Positions 15,278-22,366 of a stretch of DNA of 64,000 nt are shown piece by piece. Location: NCBI RefSeq assembly GCF_009429125.1, contig NZ_CP045529.1, forward strand, positions 3,224,001-3,288,000. Direction: 5' to 3'. The position numbers were made by a program, and so were the translations under genes. Below the pieces are notes generated by a model. The model searched no databases. It was not told the origin of the DNA and saw only the letters and a list, made by a program, of their open reading frames with translations. This stretch comes from Luteimicrobium xylanilyticum. Lineage in GTDB: Bacteria > Actinomycetota > Actinomycetes > Actinomycetales > Cellulomonadaceae. The stretch's first letter is position 1. Each line of letters opens with the position of its first letter.

Positions 15278-18200
15278 CTACTGCCAGTGCGGCGGGACGT
15301 CGCGGCGCAGGCGCTCGTCGTTCGCGTCGCCGCCCGGTTCCGCGCTGTCCGGGTCGACGTCGTCGCTCGTGCTGCCGAGGACGGTCTCGCGCTCCGTCCC
15401 GGGACGCACCACGCGCCGTCGGGCGCTGCGGCGACCCTGGCTCCCGTCGTCCGTCGCGCCCGACGGCGTCGCGTCGGGCGGGGTGCTCGCCTCGCCGTCG
15501 GTGCCCCGCTCGTCCGACGACGCCGGCAGCACCGGCTCCGGGGCCGACGGCTCGACGTGGCGCCGAGCGGCCGAGGCCGTCCGGACCACCGGCGTCGCGC
15601 CCGTGACCACGGGCTGCCGCCCGACGCCGAGCCGCGCGTCGCGGACCGCGAGCGCCGCGCGTCGGATCCGCTCGGCCTCCTTCTCGGGGTCGAGGAACGC
15701 GGCCGCCGACCACACCTGTACGACCGTCCAGCCCAGCCGTTCGAGCCGTTCGCGGCGCTGCCGCTCCCGGACGCGGACGCTCGGCTGCGCGACGTAGGCC
15801 TCGTCGTCGGTCAGGACGGCCACGAGCAGCTCGCCAGGCACGTCGGGGTGCCCGACGACGAGCGGCACCCGGTCCGCCCCGGCGGGGCCGAAGTCCGTCT
15901 CGACGACGAGCCCGGTGCGCCACAGCCTCTCGGCGAGGTCGAGCACGAGTCGGTCCGTGCCGCGCGCGACGTCGACGCCGTTCCACAGCTCGAGCGGGTC
16001 GGCCTTCCCGTCGCGCTCCTCCGCGAACGCCAGGAGGTCGGCGAGGAGGCGCGCCCCGGCCCCGCGCAGGCGGTCGGGGTCGAGCTCGTCGGCGCGGAAG
16101 CACGAGACGACGTCGAGCCGCTCCCGGCTGGCACCCACCGCGTCGAGCAGGAGCGCGTCGCCGCCCGCCTCCCCCACGAGGCCGAACCGGTGCAGGACGC
16201 GGCCGTGCGGCGTCTTGCCGAAGCCGAGCGTGAGGATGATCGCGTCGCGCGTCAGGCCGGCGACACCGGTGAGGTCGGCGACGACGACGGGCTCGGGCCG
16301 GCTCCCGGCGAAGAAGCCGGCCAGCCCCGGGTTGCGCCGCACCTCGGCGAGCAGCGCCTCCCGGATCCGGGCGGCGTGCGCAGGCGTGACCGCGACGATC
16401 CCGAGCGTCTGCTCGGGCCGGAGCATCGCGTGCTCGATCGCCAGCTCGACCACGCGGTCCAGCTCGGCCTGCGTGGACTCGACCGCCCCCGACACCGGGT
16501 CCGGCATCCCGAGGCCCTCGGTCACGTGCAGGTGCACCGTCGCGCGCGACGCCGGGAGCGGCGCGGGCGCGAGCACGCCGTCGTACCCGTGCTTCGTGAG
16601 GAAGCCGACCAGGTGCGGGTCGCGGCGCGTCGCGTCCGACCGCAGCGTCAGCGTCGGGAGGACCCGCGCGAGCTCGCGCACCGCGGGCGTCGACGCCGAG
16701 CGGACGTCCCCGACGACGACGACCTGCCGCCCGCGCGCGATGGCCGCGAGCAGCATCTCGAGCGGGACGTGCTGGACGGCGTCGAGCACCACCAGGTCGA
16801 CGGTCCGCGTCGTCGGGAAGAGCTGAGGCACGAGCGTCGGCGTCGCGACCACGACGGGGCGCAGCGCGCGGACGAGCTCGGTGTGCCGCTCGTACAGGTC
16901 GCGCACCGTCCGCAGCCGCCCCTCCAACAGCTCCGAGAACAGCGCCTTGGTGGTGTCGGGGTCGGCGCGCATCGCCTCGACCGTGCGCGCGTGCACGTGG
17001 TTGAGGACCGAGACGGGGAGCGCGGTCACGTGCCGACGGTCCAGGTCGCGGAACCGCGCCGCCAGGGCGTCCAGACCGGGCCCGTCCTGACCGGTCAGCG
17101 CCGGGTCCGTCGCGACGATCTGCTCGAACACCGAGCTCCACCACGCCAGCTCGAGCTCCGTGCTCACGAGCCCGGGCGTGACGGCACGCCGCGACAGGTC
17201 GTCGACGAGCTCCGCGAGCCCGGCACCCCGCGCGCGCCGGACGGCGGCCGTGCGCTCGGGCAGGTCGTCGAGCGCCGAGCGGTCCTCGGCCAGGGCGTCG
17301 AGCCGCGCCGCGAGGTCGTCGAACGGCAGGTCCAGCAGCGCGCCGCCGCCCGGGGTGGGCGCGAGGACGCGCGAGAGCTCCTCCACGTCGATCCGGACGG
17401 CCTCGTTCGTGTCCTCGATCGCCGACAGGCCCTCGGGCAGCCGCGGCCAGCTCCCCGTCGGGCAGTGCGTCGCCCAGACGGCGCGCTGCGCCTCGACCTG
17501 GAGCAGCGCCGCGTGCACGTCCGAGACCCGGATGCCCGGGCGCAGCATGTCCTTCGCGCGCCGCACCAGCCGCCGCCGCGCGACGCCACCCATCTCGATC
17601 CCGTGGTCCAGACGCCACTGCTTCGTCGCCGTCGCCTGCACCATGTCGACGGCCGGCTGCTCGAACACGAGCGGCTGGAACACGTCGAGCGTGCCCCGCA
17701 TCCCGCCCAGCATCTGCAGCACGTCCTGCCACTCGCCCAGGGTCGTCGCCGCCGTCAGGTCCGTCGCTCCCGACACGTACTCGATCTGCTCGCGCAGGCG
17801 CGGCAGCGTCTGGGTCCGCAACCGGTCGAGCCGCAGCAGCGTCGACCGGGCGTCGTCCTCCGTCTCGAGGTCCGCGTCGAACCAGGGCGTCGTCGCCGCG
17901 TGCAGCGTGAACGCCCCCAGCTCCGCGGCCCGCTCCAGGTCCGCCGCCGCGCCCGCGCGGGTGTCGTCGTCCAGGGCGCTCGTGACCTCCGACGACAGCC
18001 GCACCGCCGTCTCCGGCGCAGGCCGCTCCGACGTCAGCCGCGCCAGCGCCTGCAGCGCGTCGTACGCCGACACGCCCCACGGCGCGCGCGGCAGGTGCAG
18101 CGCCTCGATGTACGCCGTCAGGCGCGCCCGCGCGCCCACCAGCGCATCCATCGTCTCCGCGTGCACCGACAGGTCCGTCTGCGCCGGCTCGGACGCCATC

Positions 18201-19954
18201 GCCGTCAGCAGCCGGTTCGCCGCGGACGCGCGCCACCCCGGCTCCGGCGCGATCTCGAACGTCAGCTCGCCCAGCCCCAGGTCCCCCAGCCGCGACGAGA
18301 CCGCGTCGGCCGCGCGCCGGTGACCCGTCACGTACAGGGCCTGGCGGCCGCTCGCGGCAGCCTCCGCGAGCAGCGCCGCGACCGTCCCGACCACGTCCGA
18401 GCCCGACGGCGCGTCGATCGCGAAATGACCGCCCGCCACGAGTGCGTCCACCGCGCGGCGCTGGGCCTGGTCCAGGTCGCCCACGCCCCGCTCCAGCACC
18501 GGGTCGCCGTCGGCCGAGCGCTCCGGCGGCAGCGGCGTCCCCACCGGGACCGTCACCTGCGACGACCCCGCCAGCGCCGCGACAACCTCGTGCCGCGCCA
18601 GACCCGGCGCCAGGTCGTCCAGGTCGTCCACCAGGTGCTGGCCCGGGTGCACGAACGACCCCACCAGCCGGCGGTCCGTCAACGAGAAGTCCTCCAGCAC
18701 CGCCGCGCCCAGCGTGCCGATCCGCGCCAGCACCGCCGACGGGTCGAACCCGACCCCCGTGAACGCGCCCTGCGCCAGGGACACCGGGTCGATCAGCGCG
18801 CCGTGGTCGCGCAGCGCGCGGACGAGGAGGGTGTTGAGCTCGACCGTGGGTTCGAGGGTGAGCTCGAAGTCCGTGCCGGAGCGGCCGGCCGTCGAGATCG
18901 TCAGCGAGCGGAGGAGGACGGGGGCGTTGACTCGTCTGGGGGCCGGTGCACCGTCGGCCGGGTCCGGTGCCGACGGCACCGAGGCGCTCGGACCGGGCTC
19001 GGCCGCCCGGACCGCGGTCGTGTCTCCGTCCTGCACAGCGGCCGAGCCCTTGACGTCCTTCGCCGCCTCGGCCCCGTCGTCACCTCGTCCGGCCGTCGCG
19101 TTCGGACCATCGGCACCTTCCGCGGCGGCCGCCTCTCGACCCCGCCCGGTCGGGTGCGCCGTCTCCACCGCCGCGACGTCCGCGAGACCCGCGCGCTCGC
19201 CCGCGGGGCGCGCTTCGGACCGGTCACGCCGGGCTCCGGTCGCGTCGCCGTCCTCGCTTCCGCCGTCGTCGGCGTGCGCCCGTGCTTCCAGCGCCAGCGG
19301 CGCCGACGACGCAGCGACCTCGGGACGGATCGCGCGGAAGGAGGAGGTCGCGACCTTCGCGAGGGCGGCCATGTCGTCGGAGCGGGGGCCCGGGCCCGCC
19401 GTTCCGGACCACGAGGCGACGCCGATCGCCAGGTAGGTCGGCGCCGTGCCGTAGCGCTGCGCGTAGTCCTGGGTCTGCGCGACGACGGCGCGCGCGTGCC
19501 GGCGGGCCGTCGGCAGGGCGTCGGGCTCGCGGAACAGGTTGGACAGGCGCGTCGGGCGACCCGCGAGGAGCTGCGCCAGCCCGGAGGGGTGCGCCGCCGA
19601 CAGGTCCAGGACCGCGTCGCCCAGCACCGTGATGTCCTCGAGGGACGAGCCGCCCACGTGCTCGACCAGCGCCACACGCCAGCGCGGGAGAGCCGCCTCG
19701 ACGGCCTCCTCGCTCGTCAGCGGGCCCGTCGGCTGCGTCAGGAGGGCCGGGCCCTCGTCGCGACCGACCACCGTGCCCTCCGCCTCGGTGGTGCCGAACG
19801 ACGGGTGCGCAGCGGCACCGCCGGGTCCGGCGTCGTCGCCGGGCGTGGGTGCCGTCGTCGGTGCGTCACCGGTGCGCGCCCTGTCGCGCCGCCAGAGGCG
19901 GGCGAGCGGGGAGCCCGGCCGGTCCGGTTCGGGGTCGGGGCCTGCAGCAGTCAC
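15278..19954 (-). CDS. Giant helicase/REase-like protein (DUF4011/MTES_1575 type) with degenerate ATPase motifs
   Basis: 1558 residues, GTG start. The N-terminal segment (about 105-185; DLSAAHPSGLAQLLAGRPTR) matches actinobacterial DUF4011-type helicases. An acidic, low-complexity linker spans ~225-340. The helicase core starts at LDQAQRRAVDAL (494-505). The Walker A position reads APSGSDVVGT (515-524), where the family has GPPGTGKT, so the essential Lys is missing. The Walker B position reads VVLDAVQH (1055-1062) instead of DEAS/DEAH, losing the Glu. The C-terminus (about 1360-1430; VRVRERQRRERLERLGW, QVWSAAAFLDP) is like the MTES_1575 endonuclease-like domain, but with LTDD where active members usually have an E-x-D. 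It may be a non-hydrolysing nucleic-acid scaffold. It is the last gene before a bidirectional terminator. Confidence 0.7.
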   Translation of the reverse strand: MTAAGPDPEPDRPGSPLARLWRRDRARTGDAPTTAPTPGDDAGPGGAAAHPSFGTTEAEGTVVGRDEGPALLTQPTGPLTSEEAVEAALPRWRVALVEHVGGSSLEDITVLGDAVLDLSAAHPSGLAQLLAGRPTRLSNLFREPDALPTARRHARAVVAQTQDYAQRYGTAPTYLAIGVASWSGTAGPGPRSDDMAALAKVATSSFRAIRPEVAASSAPLALEARAHADDGGSEDGDATGARRDRSEARPAGERAGLADVAAVETAHPTGRGREAAAAEGADGPNATAGRGDDGAEAAKDVKGSAAVQDGDTTAVRAAEPGPSASVPSAPDPADGAPAPRRVNAPVLLRSLTISTAGRSGTDFELTLEPTVELNTLLVRALRDHGALIDPVSLAQGAFTGVGFDPSAVLARIGTLGAAVLEDFSLTDRRLVGSFVHPGQHLVDDLDDLAPGLARHEVVAALAGSSQVTVPVGTPLPPERSADGDPVLERGVGDLDQAQRRAVDALVAGGHFAIDAPSGSDVVGTVAALLAEAAASGRQALYVTGHRRAADAVSSRLGDLGLGELTFEIAPEPGWRASAANRLLTAMASEPAQTDLSVHAETMDALVGARARLTAYIEALHLPRAPWGVSAYDALQALARLTSERPAPETAVRLSSEVTSALDDDTRAGAAADLERAAELGAFTLHAATTPWFDADLETEDDARSTLLRLDRLRTQTLPRLREQIEYVSGATDLTAATTLGEWQDVLQMLGGMRGTLDVFQPLVFEQPAVDMVQATATKQWRLDHGIEMGGVARRRLVRRAKDMLRPGIRVSDVHAALLQVEAQRAVWATHCPTGSWPRLPEGLSAIEDTNEAVRIDVEELSRVLAPTPGGGALLDLPFDDLAARLDALAEDRSALDDLPERTAAVRRARGAGLAELVDDLSRRAVTPGLVSTELELAWWSSVFEQIVATDPALTGQDGPGLDALAARFRDLDRRHVTALPVSVLNHVHARTVEAMRADPDTTKALFSELLEGRLRTVRDLYERHTELVRALRPVVVATPTLVPQLFPTTRTVDLVVLDAVQHVPLEMLLAAIARGRQVVVVGDVRSASTPAVRELARVLPTLTLRSDATRRDPHLVGFLTKHGYDGVLAPAPLPASRATVHLHVTEGLGMPDPVSGAVESTQAELDRVVELAIEHAMLRPEQTLGIVAVTPAHAARIREALLAEVRRNPGLAGFFAGSRPEPVVVADLTGVAGLTRDAIILTLGFGKTPHGRVLHRFGLVGEAGGDALLLDAVGASRERLDVVSCFRADELDPDRLRGAGARLLADLLAFAEERDGKADPLELWNGVDVARGTDRLVLDLAERLWRTGLVVETDFGPAGADRVPLVVGHPDVPGELLVAVLTDDEAYVAQPSVRVRERQRRERLERLGWTVVQVWSAAAFLDPEKEAERIRRAALAVRDARLGVGRQPVVTGATPVVRTASAARRHVEPSAPEPVLPASSDERGTDGEASTPPDATPSGATDDGSQGRRSARRRVVRPGTERETVLGSTSDDVDPDSAEPGGDANDERLRRDVPPHWQ

Positions 19955-20065: not shown

Positions 20066-20095
20066 ACCGTGACCCGGAAAGCTCCCGGACGACGA

Positions 20096-20123
20096 CGAAG
20101 GCCCCGCCGGAGCGGGGCCTTCG
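20096..20123. terminator. Orphan terminator-like hairpin between divergent genes
   Basis: A perfect 12-bp stem (20096-20107 with 20112-20123) closes a CGGA loop. No gene ends here on either strand. On the minus strand it would lie in the 5' leader of the helicase-like gene and could attenuate it, or end a small RNA. There is no T-run. Confidence 0.5.
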
Positions 20124-20136
20124 CCTTCACGAGGAA

Positions 20137-20173
20137 CGGCGCGCACCACGCAGGGGGCAAGCGGTGCGCGCCG
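20137..20173. repeat. 11-bp stem hairpin with 15-nt loop
   Basis: CGGCGCGCACC (20137-20147) pairs perfectly with GGTGCGCGCCG (20163-20173). It sits 13 bp from the orphan terminator-like hairpin, so the two may fold together in one leader or small RNA. Confidence 0.5.
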
Positions 20174-20352
20174 TCGTAGAAGAGTGTGCAGGTTCAACTT
20201 TCGCCGCGTCAACACCTCGAGGGCGATTCGGCCGAACTTTTTTGGACGACCGTCCATCTTCGCAGGTCAGACATCAAAACGAGTATGTGGGACAAGCGTC
20301 CCGATTACGCCCCCGGCAGCGGAGCGCATCGAACTATGTCAATATCGCCCCC

Positions 20353-21354
20353 ATGCCGCAGGAGCCGCCCGTCACGTCCCGACGCGTCCTCGAGGCAGGC
20401 GCCATCAGCTCCCAGTCCGCACGGAACCTCGCCACGATCTTCGGAGGGCTCGCCGACCCGGTCCGCCTGCGGATGCTCTCGCTGCTGGGCACCGTCGACG
20501 AGGCGAGCGTCCGCGACCTCGCCGCGCTCTCCAACCTCTCGCAACCGACCGTCTCCCACCACCTGAGAGTGCTGCGCGACGTCGGGCTCGTCACCTCCGA
20601 GCGCCACGGGAACTGGGTCCGCTACCGCATCGCGCGGGGCCGCGGACCGACCGTCGGGACACTCTTCGACGTCTTCGCGCCCGTCGCGCTCGACCCGCCC
20701 CGCACCCCGCGCCCGATGCGGCCCGAGGTCGTCGAGGACTCGCTCGACCCGCTCGTCGGACGCCTCGCCGCCGTCTACCCGGAGGCGAGCTTCGACGTCG
20801 TCGGCCGGATCGTCCGGGAGTGCGCCACGACCCTGCTCCGCACCAGGACCACGGCCGGCTCGGCGCCGCTCCTCGCGCTCGTCGAGCGCTACGCCCGGCA
20901 GCGCCTGTCCGACGCCTCCCGCGACCGGACGCGCAGCGCGCCCCACGTCCTGTTCGTCTCGCAGACCGACACCGCCCGGTCGCAGCTCGCCGCCGCGCTC
21001 ACGCGCCGGCTCTCCCAGCACCGCGTCGTCGTCCGCACCGCCGGCCTGACCCCGGGCGCACAGATCCCCCGCAACGTCCGGGCCTTCCTCACCGAGCTCG
21101 AGGTCCCCGAGGCCGCGGCGTTCCCCAAGGCCCTGACCGACGACGCCCTGCGAGCCGCCGACGTCGTCGTCACGCTCGGCTGCTCCGACGCGTGCCCCGT
21201 GCTCCCCCACGTGCGCTACGAGGACTGGCCCGTGGGCGACCCGACGTTCTCCTCCCCGGTCGGGTTCGCGGCGCTGCGGGACGAGTTCCAGCACCGCGCG
21301 GCCCAGCTCGTCGCCGAGCTCCTCGACGAGCAGCCCGGGCCGCCGCCGGAGTAG
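20353..21354 (+). CDS. ArsR-type regulator fused to a cysteine-less LMW phosphatase/arsenate reductase domain
   Basis: 333 residues from the ATG at 20353, probably leaderless. The winged helix at about 20-100 has LSNLSQPTVSHHLRVLRDVGLV. A helical bundle (about 120-185, PEASFDVVGRIVRECATTLL) follows. A low-molecular-weight phosphatase/ArsC-like domain lies at 197-325. In ArsC the P-loop is CxxxxxR; here it is SQTDTAR (203-209), so the nucleophile is Ser203. The later pair Cys277/Cys281 (GCSDACPV) remains, as does YEDWPVGDP. The ArsR metal motif ELCVCDL is also absent (ASVRDLAAL instead). ArsR-ArsC fusions are known in actinobacteria; this one seems to have lost catalysis and classic As(III) sensing. 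It may be a redox or ligand sensor. Confidence 0.85.
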   Translation: MPQEPPVTSRRVLEAGAISSQSARNLATIFGGLADPVRLRMLSLLGTVDEASVRDLAALSNLSQPTVSHHLRVLRDVGLVTSERHGNWVRYRIARGRGPTVGTLFDVFAPVALDPPRTPRPMRPEVVEDSLDPLVGRLAAVYPEASFDVVGRIVRECATTLLRTRTTAGSAPLLALVERYARQRLSDASRDRTRSAPHVLFVSQTDTARSQLAAALTRRLSQHRVVVRTAGLTPGAQIPRNVRAFLTELEVPEAAAFPKALTDDALRAADVVVTLGCSDACPVLPHVRYEDWPVGDPTFSSPVGFAALRDEFQHRAAQLVAELLDEQPGPPPE

Positions 21355-21394: not shown

Positions 21395-22366
21395 TTGCCC
21401 CGCGACCGGACGACCTGGCCCGGCTGGGTCCTGCCCGGCGCGCGCGTCGCGTACGTCGACGACGCCCAGCCCGGCGTGGTCGAGGAGCGCACGATCGCGC
21501 GCGTCACCCGGTCGCAGATCGTGACCGACGACGGCGCGCACTGGCGCCGGCAGGCGCTCCAGCAGTCCGGCGCGTGGACAGGAGCGCTGCGCGTGCTGTC
21601 GGGGATCCGCGGCAAGTCCCTCGCCCCGTTCGACCATCCCGAGGTCGCCCGACGGCGCACCCCACCTCCCGCCGCGGGCGTCCGTCCCGCGCCCGAGGCA
21701 GACCGGGCAGCCGGGCTCGAGGCGCCCGTCGGCTCGGGCCACGGCGAGACGCGGACCCGGCGGGTCGTGTGGGCCGGCACGAACGACCCGGACCGCCTCG
21801 ACACGGCCGTGCTGCGCCTCGACCCCGACCGCCTGACCGCGACCGGGACCTCACGCACCGACGCCTACGCCATGTCCTGGACGCTCGTGACCGGCCCGGG
21901 CTGGGTCACGCGCCGGCTCGAGGTCGCGGTGCGCGGGCTCGCACCGCGGGATGCGCCGTGGTCGCGCGACCTCGTGCTCGAGCGCGCGGACGACGGACAC
22001 TGGCGCTGCGACGCGCGCTCCGCCGGGACGCTCGACGCACCCCCGCCGGGGATCGTCGACCCGGCGCAGCTCGACGACGCACTCGACTGCGACCTCGGGC
22101 TCTGCCCGGCGACGAACACCCTGCCCGTGCTGCGGCTTGGCCTCCTCGACACGGACGTGGACCCGACCGACCTCGTCATGGCGTGGGTCGAGGTGCCCTC
22201 GCTCCGCGTGGCGCCGGACCGGCAGACGTACGCGGGCGCCGTCGTCGGCGGGCGACGCGTCGCCCGGTACACGAGCGCACGGTTCGCGGTGGACCTCGCG
22301 CTCGACGCCGACGGTGTCGTCGTGGACTATCCGGGGCTCGCCCACGCGGTCGACCCGCGCAGCTGA
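21395..22366 (+). CDS. Putative glycolipid-binding domain protein with N-terminal extension
   Basis: 323 residues, TTG start four bases after GGGAGG. Residues ~130-320 match the putative glycolipid-binding family (PF06475-like). They contain the hallmark ALDCDLGLCPATNTLPVLRL (232-251), the preceding beta strands (WTLVTGPGWVTRRLEV), and TSARFAVDLALDADGVVVDYPGLA at the end. Residues 1-60 (PGWVLPGARVAYVDDAQPGVVEER, HWRRQAL) form a separate small module of unknown type, so this is a fusion. The family's biochemical role is not established. It lies 40 bp after the ArsR fusion and may be co-transcribed. Confidence 0.7.
   Translation: MPRDRTTWPGWVLPGARVAYVDDAQPGVVEERTIARVTRSQIVTDDGAHWRRQALQQSGAWTGALRVLSGIRGKSLAPFDHPEVARRRTPPPAAGVRPAPEADRAAGLEAPVGSGHGETRTRRVVWAGTNDPDRLDTAVLRLDPDRLTATGTSRTDAYAMSWTLVTGPGWVTRRLEVAVRGLAPRDAPWSRDLVLERADDGHWRCDARSAGTLDAPPPGIVDPAQLDDALDCDLGLCPATNTLPVLRLGLLDTDVDPTDLVMAWVEVPSLRVAPDRQTYAGAVVGGRRVARYTSARFAVDLALDADGVVVDYPGLAHAVDPRS

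Follow-up and report, generated by a model that had tools for sequence, protein, structure and literature searches.

A Luteimicrobium ArsR-ArsC fusion with serine at the catalytic cysteine position and half of an ars operator before its own start codon

Features of the locus

The window, a 64,000-nucleotide stretch of the Luteimicrobium xylanilyticum genome (G000; 4.21 Mb, one contig), carries a gene in which an ArsR regulator is joined to an LMWP/ArsC domain. We compared it with Luteimicrobium album NBRC 106348 (G001) and a third genome of the genus (G002). The features discussed below are as follows.

20095..20190, minus strand: small structured RNA resembling 6C, whose hairpin looks like a terminator; divergent to the fusion (from fold and conservation)
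20243..20256, no strand: dyad TGGACGACCGTCCA, which goes with the neighbouring small RNA
20289..20302, no strand: dyad GGGACAAGCGTCCC, kept in G002 without the fusion
20324..20347, plus strand: candidate operator immediately before the start codon, matching the canonical ars operator in its first half and core (ATCGAACTATGTCAATAT at 20328-20345) and lacking the second half (from motif scoring)
20353..21354, plus strand: fusion of ArsR, three-helix bundle and LMWP (pseudo-arsenate-reductase), 333 amino acids plus stop, with Ser203 replacing the catalytic Cys
20455..20598, plus strand: ArsR winged-helix core, residues 35-82 (Pfam HTH_5)
20728..20916, plus strand: three-helix bundle, about residues 126-188, from the predicted fold; contains Cys157
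20947..21309, plus strand: LMWP/ArsC domain, residues 199-319 (Pfam LMWPc)
20959..20979, plus strand: dead nucleophile loop SQTDTAR, residues 203-209 (CVANAGR or close in other fusions)
21181..21195, plus strand: CSDAC, residues 277-281, equivalents of Cg_ArsC1' Cys162 and Cys166
21395..22366, plus strand: downstream gene with a TTG start and a C-terminal PF06475 (putative glycolipid-binding) domain, possibly co-transcribed with the fusion

On the other side of the small RNA, a large divergent gene (15278-19954, minus strand) encodes 1558 amino acids, in which Pfam recognised only a C-terminal REase_MTES_1575 domain. It is conserved in G001 and G002.

Domain architecture and catalytic residues

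The first-pass annotation had described an ArsR winged helix and an LMWP domain in one protein at 20353-21354, and the Pfam matches and the translation bore out its coordinates, frame and residues. The ArsR-type winged helix was recognised by HTH_5 at residues 35-82 (E 1e-13, 51.4 bits against a cut-off of 22) and by NF033788 (84.3 against 55), and the second domain by LMWPc at residues 199-319 (E 5e-9, 36.9 bits against 23.2). The sequence of the three-helix bundle gave only a weak match to NF046112 (E 0.034), under the cut-off, and PF21234, which two ordinary fusions matched, was absent from the protein's matches at E up to 1. The bundle is nonetheless clear in the predicted structure, in which residues 126-327 align with Cg_ArsC1' of Corynebacterium glutamicum (3t38). 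The model has moderate confidence, with a mean pLDDT of 74.4, a pTM of 0.48 and 11 sequences in the underlying alignment. A further arrangement was noted in Mumia xiangluensis, where a single open frame (L034:6001-7374) combines HTH_5 and PF21234 with LMWPc twice over, giving ArsR-ArsC-ArsC.

The HTH of the window protein carries SQPTVSHHL, as in ordinary fusions. Its sole cysteines are Cys157, Cys277 and Cys281. Cys157, common to both Luteimicrobium species that have the fusion, stands where all 71 other fusions of the tree set, and a further 41 of 41, have Ser. The nucleophile Cys of the CX5R motif found in active arsenate reductases and LMW phosphatases is replaced by Ser203. The loop SQTDTAR aligned without gaps to the catalytic loops of Cg_ArsC1' (3t38) and pI258 ArsC, which upholds the earlier assignment of Ser to the nucleophile position at residues 203-209. 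The resolving cysteine pair of active ArsC is present as Cys277 and Cys281 within GCSDACPV, again as annotated. In a phmmer alignment, S203, C277 and C281 matched C88, C162 and C166 at a constant offset of 115. These are the catalytic cysteines of Cg_ArsC1' as named in the relevant passage of PMC6514093, so the nucleophile was lost while the other two catalytic cysteines were kept. The P-loop Arg209 and Asp296 and Pro297, identical in 71/71 other fusions, were also retained. Judged on these residues, the window protein is best read as a catalytically dead enzyme domain inside a transcription factor.

Distribution of the serine variant

Ser occupied the nucleophile position in 2 of the 205 full-length fusions whose loops were read, and both belong to Luteimicrobium. 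Apart from this pair, Cys was found in the 71 fusions of the tree set and in 91/91 and 41/41 fusions of two further sets. The 205 are the full-length fusions at or above the search thresholds; one may have been counted twice (L040 and L249, on contigs of equal length), and an already-read locus (L280) was omitted from the set of 41. The family set took in every match at E <= 1e-60, which came to 143 from 126 of the 221 genomes. The order sample covered every match in the 68 of 396 genomes that had one at E <= 1e-50. The contig scan for the fusion gave at least 15 loci, and a plasmid search returned three records with the fusion, at under 60% identity. The earlier annotation had asked whether Ser at the nucleophile defines a clade among ArsR-LMWP fusions; the alignment indicates that it marks one lineage.

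One paper is said to concern an ArsRC2 fusion of Microbacterium sp. A33. PMC6514093, in its part on fusions, describes ArsR-ArsC fusions of Actinobacteria (ArsR-ArsC2; clusters C4 and C7) and mentions Microbacterium sp. A33, and an excerpt of PMC12113805 has arsR and arsC1 as separate genes. Among the top matches in the open-licence literature, no nucleophile-dead ArsR-ArsC fusion was reported. The nucleophile-dead form therefore appears to be new, the actinobacterial fusions themselves having been described already in that part of PMC6514093.

In a tree built by a quick method, a branch with an SH-aLRT value of 99 separated six distant fusions from 67 rows, namely the Luteimicrobium pair and 65 ordinary fusions; duplicates had been removed (L035, L041, L083 and further copies of the Luteimicrobium genes). 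Within the 67, the pair joined a group of 30 rows (SH-aLRT 93, unstarred), a finer placement that is unsure because the tree carried a long-branch warning. The pair thus sits phylogenetically inside the fusion family, among ordinary and often ars-linked members. Its stem was long (1.83 changes per column), while its own tips measured 0.03-0.06, against a median tip of 0.22. Fast change followed by constraint would fit a change of function.

The altered columns were counted over 65 of the 71 fusions, the six distant ones (L085, L090, L096, L097, L098, L102) being omitted. Of 120 columns conserved in at least 90% of these ordinary fusions, 30 differed in the window protein and 28 differed in both species. 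The 28 were distributed as 5/31 in the HTH, 4/18 in the middle part and 19/71 in the LMWP part, and their concentration in the LMWP relative to the HTH was not significant (P 0.31). In the loop, four of eight conserved columns were altered (C203S, N206D, A207T, G208A). These substitutions bear on the proposal that the LMWP domain holds an oxyanion or phosphorylated ligand and does not turn it over, as a Cys-to-Ser substrate trap would. The retained Arg209, Asp296-Pro297 and Ser210, the last also kept in the loop, would suit such binding, and a C7S enzyme of the LMWP fold has been crystallised with phosphorylated serine, according to the title of 4kk4. However, half of the conserved loop columns have changed, Gly208 to Ala among them, and with Asn206 changed to Asp the anion loop would itself be negatively charged. 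We consider a substrate trap unlikely.

Preservation within Luteimicrobium

The L. album protein is 92% identical over 333 residues, and its gene has the same surroundings. The Ser loop and the ASVRDL stretch are identical in the two species, as are codons 198-213, which include the loop. Ser203 is encoded by TCG in both genomes. A sequencing error at this codon, a possibility that had been raised with the original observation, is therefore unlikely; the second genome argues strongly against it. Between the two genes we counted 65 synonymous and 25 non-synonymous differences (dS 0.274, dN 0.036, ratio 0.131). The dN/dS value was 0.091 in the LMWP part, 0.125 in the N-terminal part and 0.127 in the middle part, and Fisher tests of synonymous against non-synonymous changes gave P of about 1e-19 for the gene and about 1e-8 for the LMWP part. 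The dead domain is thus under purifying selection and must still do something. The former enzyme domain probably now has a different job, sensing or structural.

Eight window proteins were queried and five fell within the fetched G001 stretch. The fusion was the most alike of these (92%), followed by the large divergent protein (90%), the methyltransferase (83%), the PF06475 protein (75-77%) and the main piece of the DUF6114 protein (75%). In G002 there was no fusion match at E <= 1e-60, the best match being at 2e-21. A decaying remnant or a sequence artefact might be supposed from the stem of 1.83 changes per column and the half-lost operator. Against this, the frame is open in two species, the dN/dS is 0.13 and the loop is identical; we rejected a sequencing error or pseudogene on these grounds, and regard decay or artefact as very improbable.

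The candidate operator

Loci of ordinary fusions share a conserved element with the outline TGTATCGACANNTGTCAAYATAGACNNATGTCGATACA, which we modelled from 25 distinct sites picked by their core pattern. The operator core lay within 150 bp before the fusion's residue 28 in 13 of 71 fusions, and elsewhere in the locus for some others. Among the 13 with the core just in front, 10 have no ArsR cysteines, as is also the case for the window protein. The first half and core scored 23.8 at 20324, the best of 127,922 window positions, with the next at 3.0; the corresponding score in G001 was 31.4. Scored as a whole, the element reached only -1.0 in the window; G001 gave 22.3, and the lowest of the 25 model-defining sites 50.6. 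The second half has been lost in both. Binding may be weak, given this loss and the low whole-element score.

The motif ATCGANNNNTGTCAAYAT, at no more than one mismatch, had a single occurrence in each of G000 and G001, in either case at the fusion. It was not found in G002, and the reversed control gave none. The single occurrence in the genome suggests autoregulation, with no wider regulon carrying the half-operator motif.

The upstream dyads and the small RNA

The first-pass annotation had offered the dyads at 20243-20256 and 20289-20302 as operators of the fusion. Both dyads exist and are conserved in G001, but their assignment to the fusion was rejected on two grounds. The G002 locus, from the large divergent gene to the next gene, holds no fusion and still contains the second dyad with one inner base changed, a variant of the first dyad and one further dyad. 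In addition, the dyads recur upstream of the small RNA in relatives. Of 27 non-Luteimicrobium loci, 8 had TGGACN4GTCCA and 10 had GGACN4GTCC in a zone of 120 bp upstream of the small RNA, and the other 17 had neither form. In the remaining 75,616 bases of these loci the two forms occurred 0 and 9 times (for the 10, Poisson P 1.4e-11). The count of 27 takes in every located small-RNA match outside Luteimicrobium, weaker matches falling outside it. The 10 loci span several genera (L136, L138, L140, L142, L143, L144, L148, L149, L157, L159), and from this recurrence the GGACN4GTCC dyad is presumably bound by some regulator. The dyads thus go with the small RNA. The fusion might possibly use them too, but from the sequence its likelier operator is the half-operator at 20328-20345. 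A lesson for annotation is that dyads conserved beside the gene of a regulator may be those of a different gene. As a regulon motif, GGACRANCGTCC led nowhere: the three genomes had 29, 25 and 30 sites, and the reversed control 8, 4 and 3.

The small RNA spans 96 bases on the minus strand, has a folding energy of -65.9 kcal/mol (z -7.3) and ends in a strong terminator-like hairpin. It is present across the host's family, with a conserved C-rich hairpin and an invariant C-rich loop. In an alignment of 26 of the 30 loci (L130, L147, L149 and L156 omitted), all 16 predicted pairs of the hairpin were unbroken and eight showed changes on both sides. The match to Rfam 6C (RF01066) was 27.1 bits (E 0.15) and fell below the gathering score of 47, so we call the RNA 6C-like and no more. 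It could represent a branch of 6C not yet described, or else a distinct RNA. An RF01066 search of 59 relatives gave matches in six genomes, none of them in the host's family. We discounted two other weak Rfam matches of the same stretch, one to BASRCII26 (24.1 bits against 218) and one to istR (23.7 against 45).

The ArsR metal site and the ars genes of the host

The first-pass annotation had read ASVRDLAAL, residues 51-59, as a lost ArsR metal motif. The ArsR cysteines are indeed gone, with ASVRDL at residues 51-56 where most fusions have ACVCDL, but this is not distinctive. The 65 ordinary fusions comprised 47 with Cys at both 52 and 54, one with Cys at 52 only and 17 with neither, and we therefore rejected metal-motif loss as a mark of the Luteimicrobium lineage. 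Another Cys within the 34 residues before residue 28 was present in 44 of the 47. In the 17 (L028, L037-L040, L056, L057, L059, L063, L069, L077, L078, L080, L081, L084, L086, L088), which had TVG, TAG, SAG, HVG, AAG or PAG types at this site, any such Cys precedes the presumed start Met. All 17 kept the catalytic Cys, implying that the ArsR site has been lost repeatedly, and separately from the nucleophile. It also raises the possibility that sensing in these fusions has moved to the ArsC domain. A three-Cys As(III) site in the ArsR domain, whether of type 1, 2 or 3 as given in the portion of PMC11868830 on such sites, is absent from the window protein.

The neighbouring proteins belong to other families, and the fusion is not linked to ars genes, which agrees with the earlier statement that no ars operon is nearby. 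Searches of the host genome found no second ArsC-type LMWP and no SBF/Acr3 match. One ArsB-like transporter lies outside the window at 388255-389445; it scored 113 bits against a cut-off of 22 with Pfam ArsB, and 160 bits with the NCBIfam ArsB models, far below their cut-off of 457. Within 10 kb around it there was no ArsR-like match to the fusion's HTH query. Stand-alone arsC genes occur in G001 and G002.

These data bear on whether the protein still senses trivalent arsenic, through Cys157, Cys277 and Cys281. Exactly three cysteines are left, Cys157 being new in both species, and the same portion of PMC11868830 has three thiols as suited to As(III) and two to MAs(III). The 17 fusions that lost the ArsR site and kept the catalytic Cys make sensing by the ArsC domain conceivable, and the genome has kept the one ArsB-like transporter. 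However, it has neither an SBF/Acr3 match nor another ArsC-type LMWP, and the ArsB-like gene is no evident target because the half-operator occurs only at the fusion itself. Such sensing would also presume that Cys157 comes close to Cys277 and Cys281. Retained arsenic sensing through the three cysteines thus seems quite improbable.

In L. album the downstream PF06475 gene falls into two frames (G001:C1:2357275-2358185; L104, L110), through a frameshift or an assembly error, which makes it doubtful as a target. At the corresponding place in G002 (L122, G002:C2 about 554290-554600), the gene adjoining the small RNA matches only residues 11-84 of the PF06475 protein and seems to diverge thereafter.

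A proposed course of events

The explanation that we favour, as a real possibility short of a probable one, is that a former ars regulator, an ArsR-arsenate reductase fusion, gave up the control of ars genes in Luteimicrobium and turned into an autoregulating transcription factor whose enzyme domain is dead and which may contain a thiol-redox switch. The sequence itself shows that the nucleophile and the ArsR arsenic ligands have been lost, that the HTH recognition region and one ars half-operator before the gene's own start codon have been retained, and that the whole protein is under purifying selection. The fusion might then bind the half-operator as a dimer and repress its own promoter, and the PF06475 gene downstream would perhaps be repressed along with it. 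With less assurance, we suggest that a reversible disulfide between Cys277 and Cys281 could shift the ArsC-derived domain and alter DNA binding. Such a thiol-redox switch would not need arsenate, and thioredoxin might serve as the reducer; alternatively, a trivalent metalloid could be the signal at Cys277-Cys281. It is therefore possible that the ArsC-derived domain has been turned into a sensor. In favour of this explanation are the loop and ASVRDL stretch common to two species, the low dN/dS, the match of Cys277 and Cys281 to catalytic cysteines of Cg_ArsC1', the single half-operator, and the existence of an oxidised crystal form of an ArsC with Ser as nucleophile (1jfv). Several points weigh against it. 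Half of the operator is gone, the altered columns are not significantly concentrated in the LMWP part, and the downstream gene is broken in L. album. The Cys277/Cys281 pair could be inherited and unused, and the variant occurs in two genomes only.

Alternatively, the dead ArsC domain may have been kept only for folding or dimerisation, and the protein would be a ligand-free constitutive autorepressor. A structural role would accommodate three observations: the three-helix bundle and the LMWP part together make a single match to 3t38 (Z 19.1, 193 residues), neither the nucleophile nor the arsenic ligands of ArsR survive, and the half-operator occurs once in the genome. The pattern of constraint is harder to reconcile with it. 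The LMWP part has numerically the lowest dN/dS of the three (0.09 against 0.125 and 0.127), and the loop and the CSDAC cysteines are unchanged between the species. We find a purely structural role rather unlikely.

A broader and more speculative form of the sensing explanation can be put forward only tentatively. The protein would be a natural pseudo-arsenate-reductase acting as a signal receiver, with the resolving cysteine pair, released from the cysteine that attacks arsenate, as a redox or metalloid switch of DNA binding. In fusions generally, the ArsC domain may have taken over sensing from the cysteines of ArsR, Luteimicrobium having taken the last step, to sensing without catalysis. If the redox or metalloid switch is true, the fusion would be a clear case of an enzyme becoming a sensor domain within one polypeptide. 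Living intermediates would exist in fusions with both sites, in those without the ArsR site and in Luteimicrobium, without the nucleophile. How enzymes become sensors would then be testable on a small set of related proteins.

Comparison with known systems

The nearest relatives are the actinobacterial ArsR-ArsC fusions, which have the same domain order, full-length homology at 43-54% identity and half of the operator in common with the window protein. They differ in having the catalytic Cys and, for the most part, the ArsR cysteines, and in many of them the fetched locus also contains a stand-alone arsC, whereas the window fusion has no adjoining ars genes. Among single enzymes, the thioredoxin-dependent Cg_ArsC1' aligns with residues 126-327 of the model (3t38, Z 19.1, 193 residues, rmsd 3.9, 32% identity). 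Its Cys88 nucleophile corresponds to Ser203, and only the window protein has an ArsR domain in front.

The natural loop SQTDTARS also resembles a laboratory construct. It aligns with STGNSARS of the pI258 ArsC C10S,C15A mutant, both loops having Ser as the nucleophile residue and Ala in place of C15. The mutant is an enzyme with a CX6C pair, whereas the window protein is a regulator with CX3C. Reduced and oxidised crystal structures of this mutant are available (1jf8 and 1jfv, by the titles of the structure matches), and the oxidised form is reported to hold a Cys82-Cys89 disulfide.

Two kinds of regulator offer parallels to a cysteine-based switch. SqrR, BigR and HlyU, thiol- or persulfide-sensing members of the ArsR family, have the ArsR fold in common with the window protein, as the structure matches indicated. 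They respond to a non-metal, cysteine-based signal with cysteines inside the HTH domain, whereas those of the window protein are in the added domain. Spx is another regulator that holds a redox Cys pair, and its fold also bears the name ArsC, but this is the unrelated thioredoxin-like ArsC fold, and it has no HTH.
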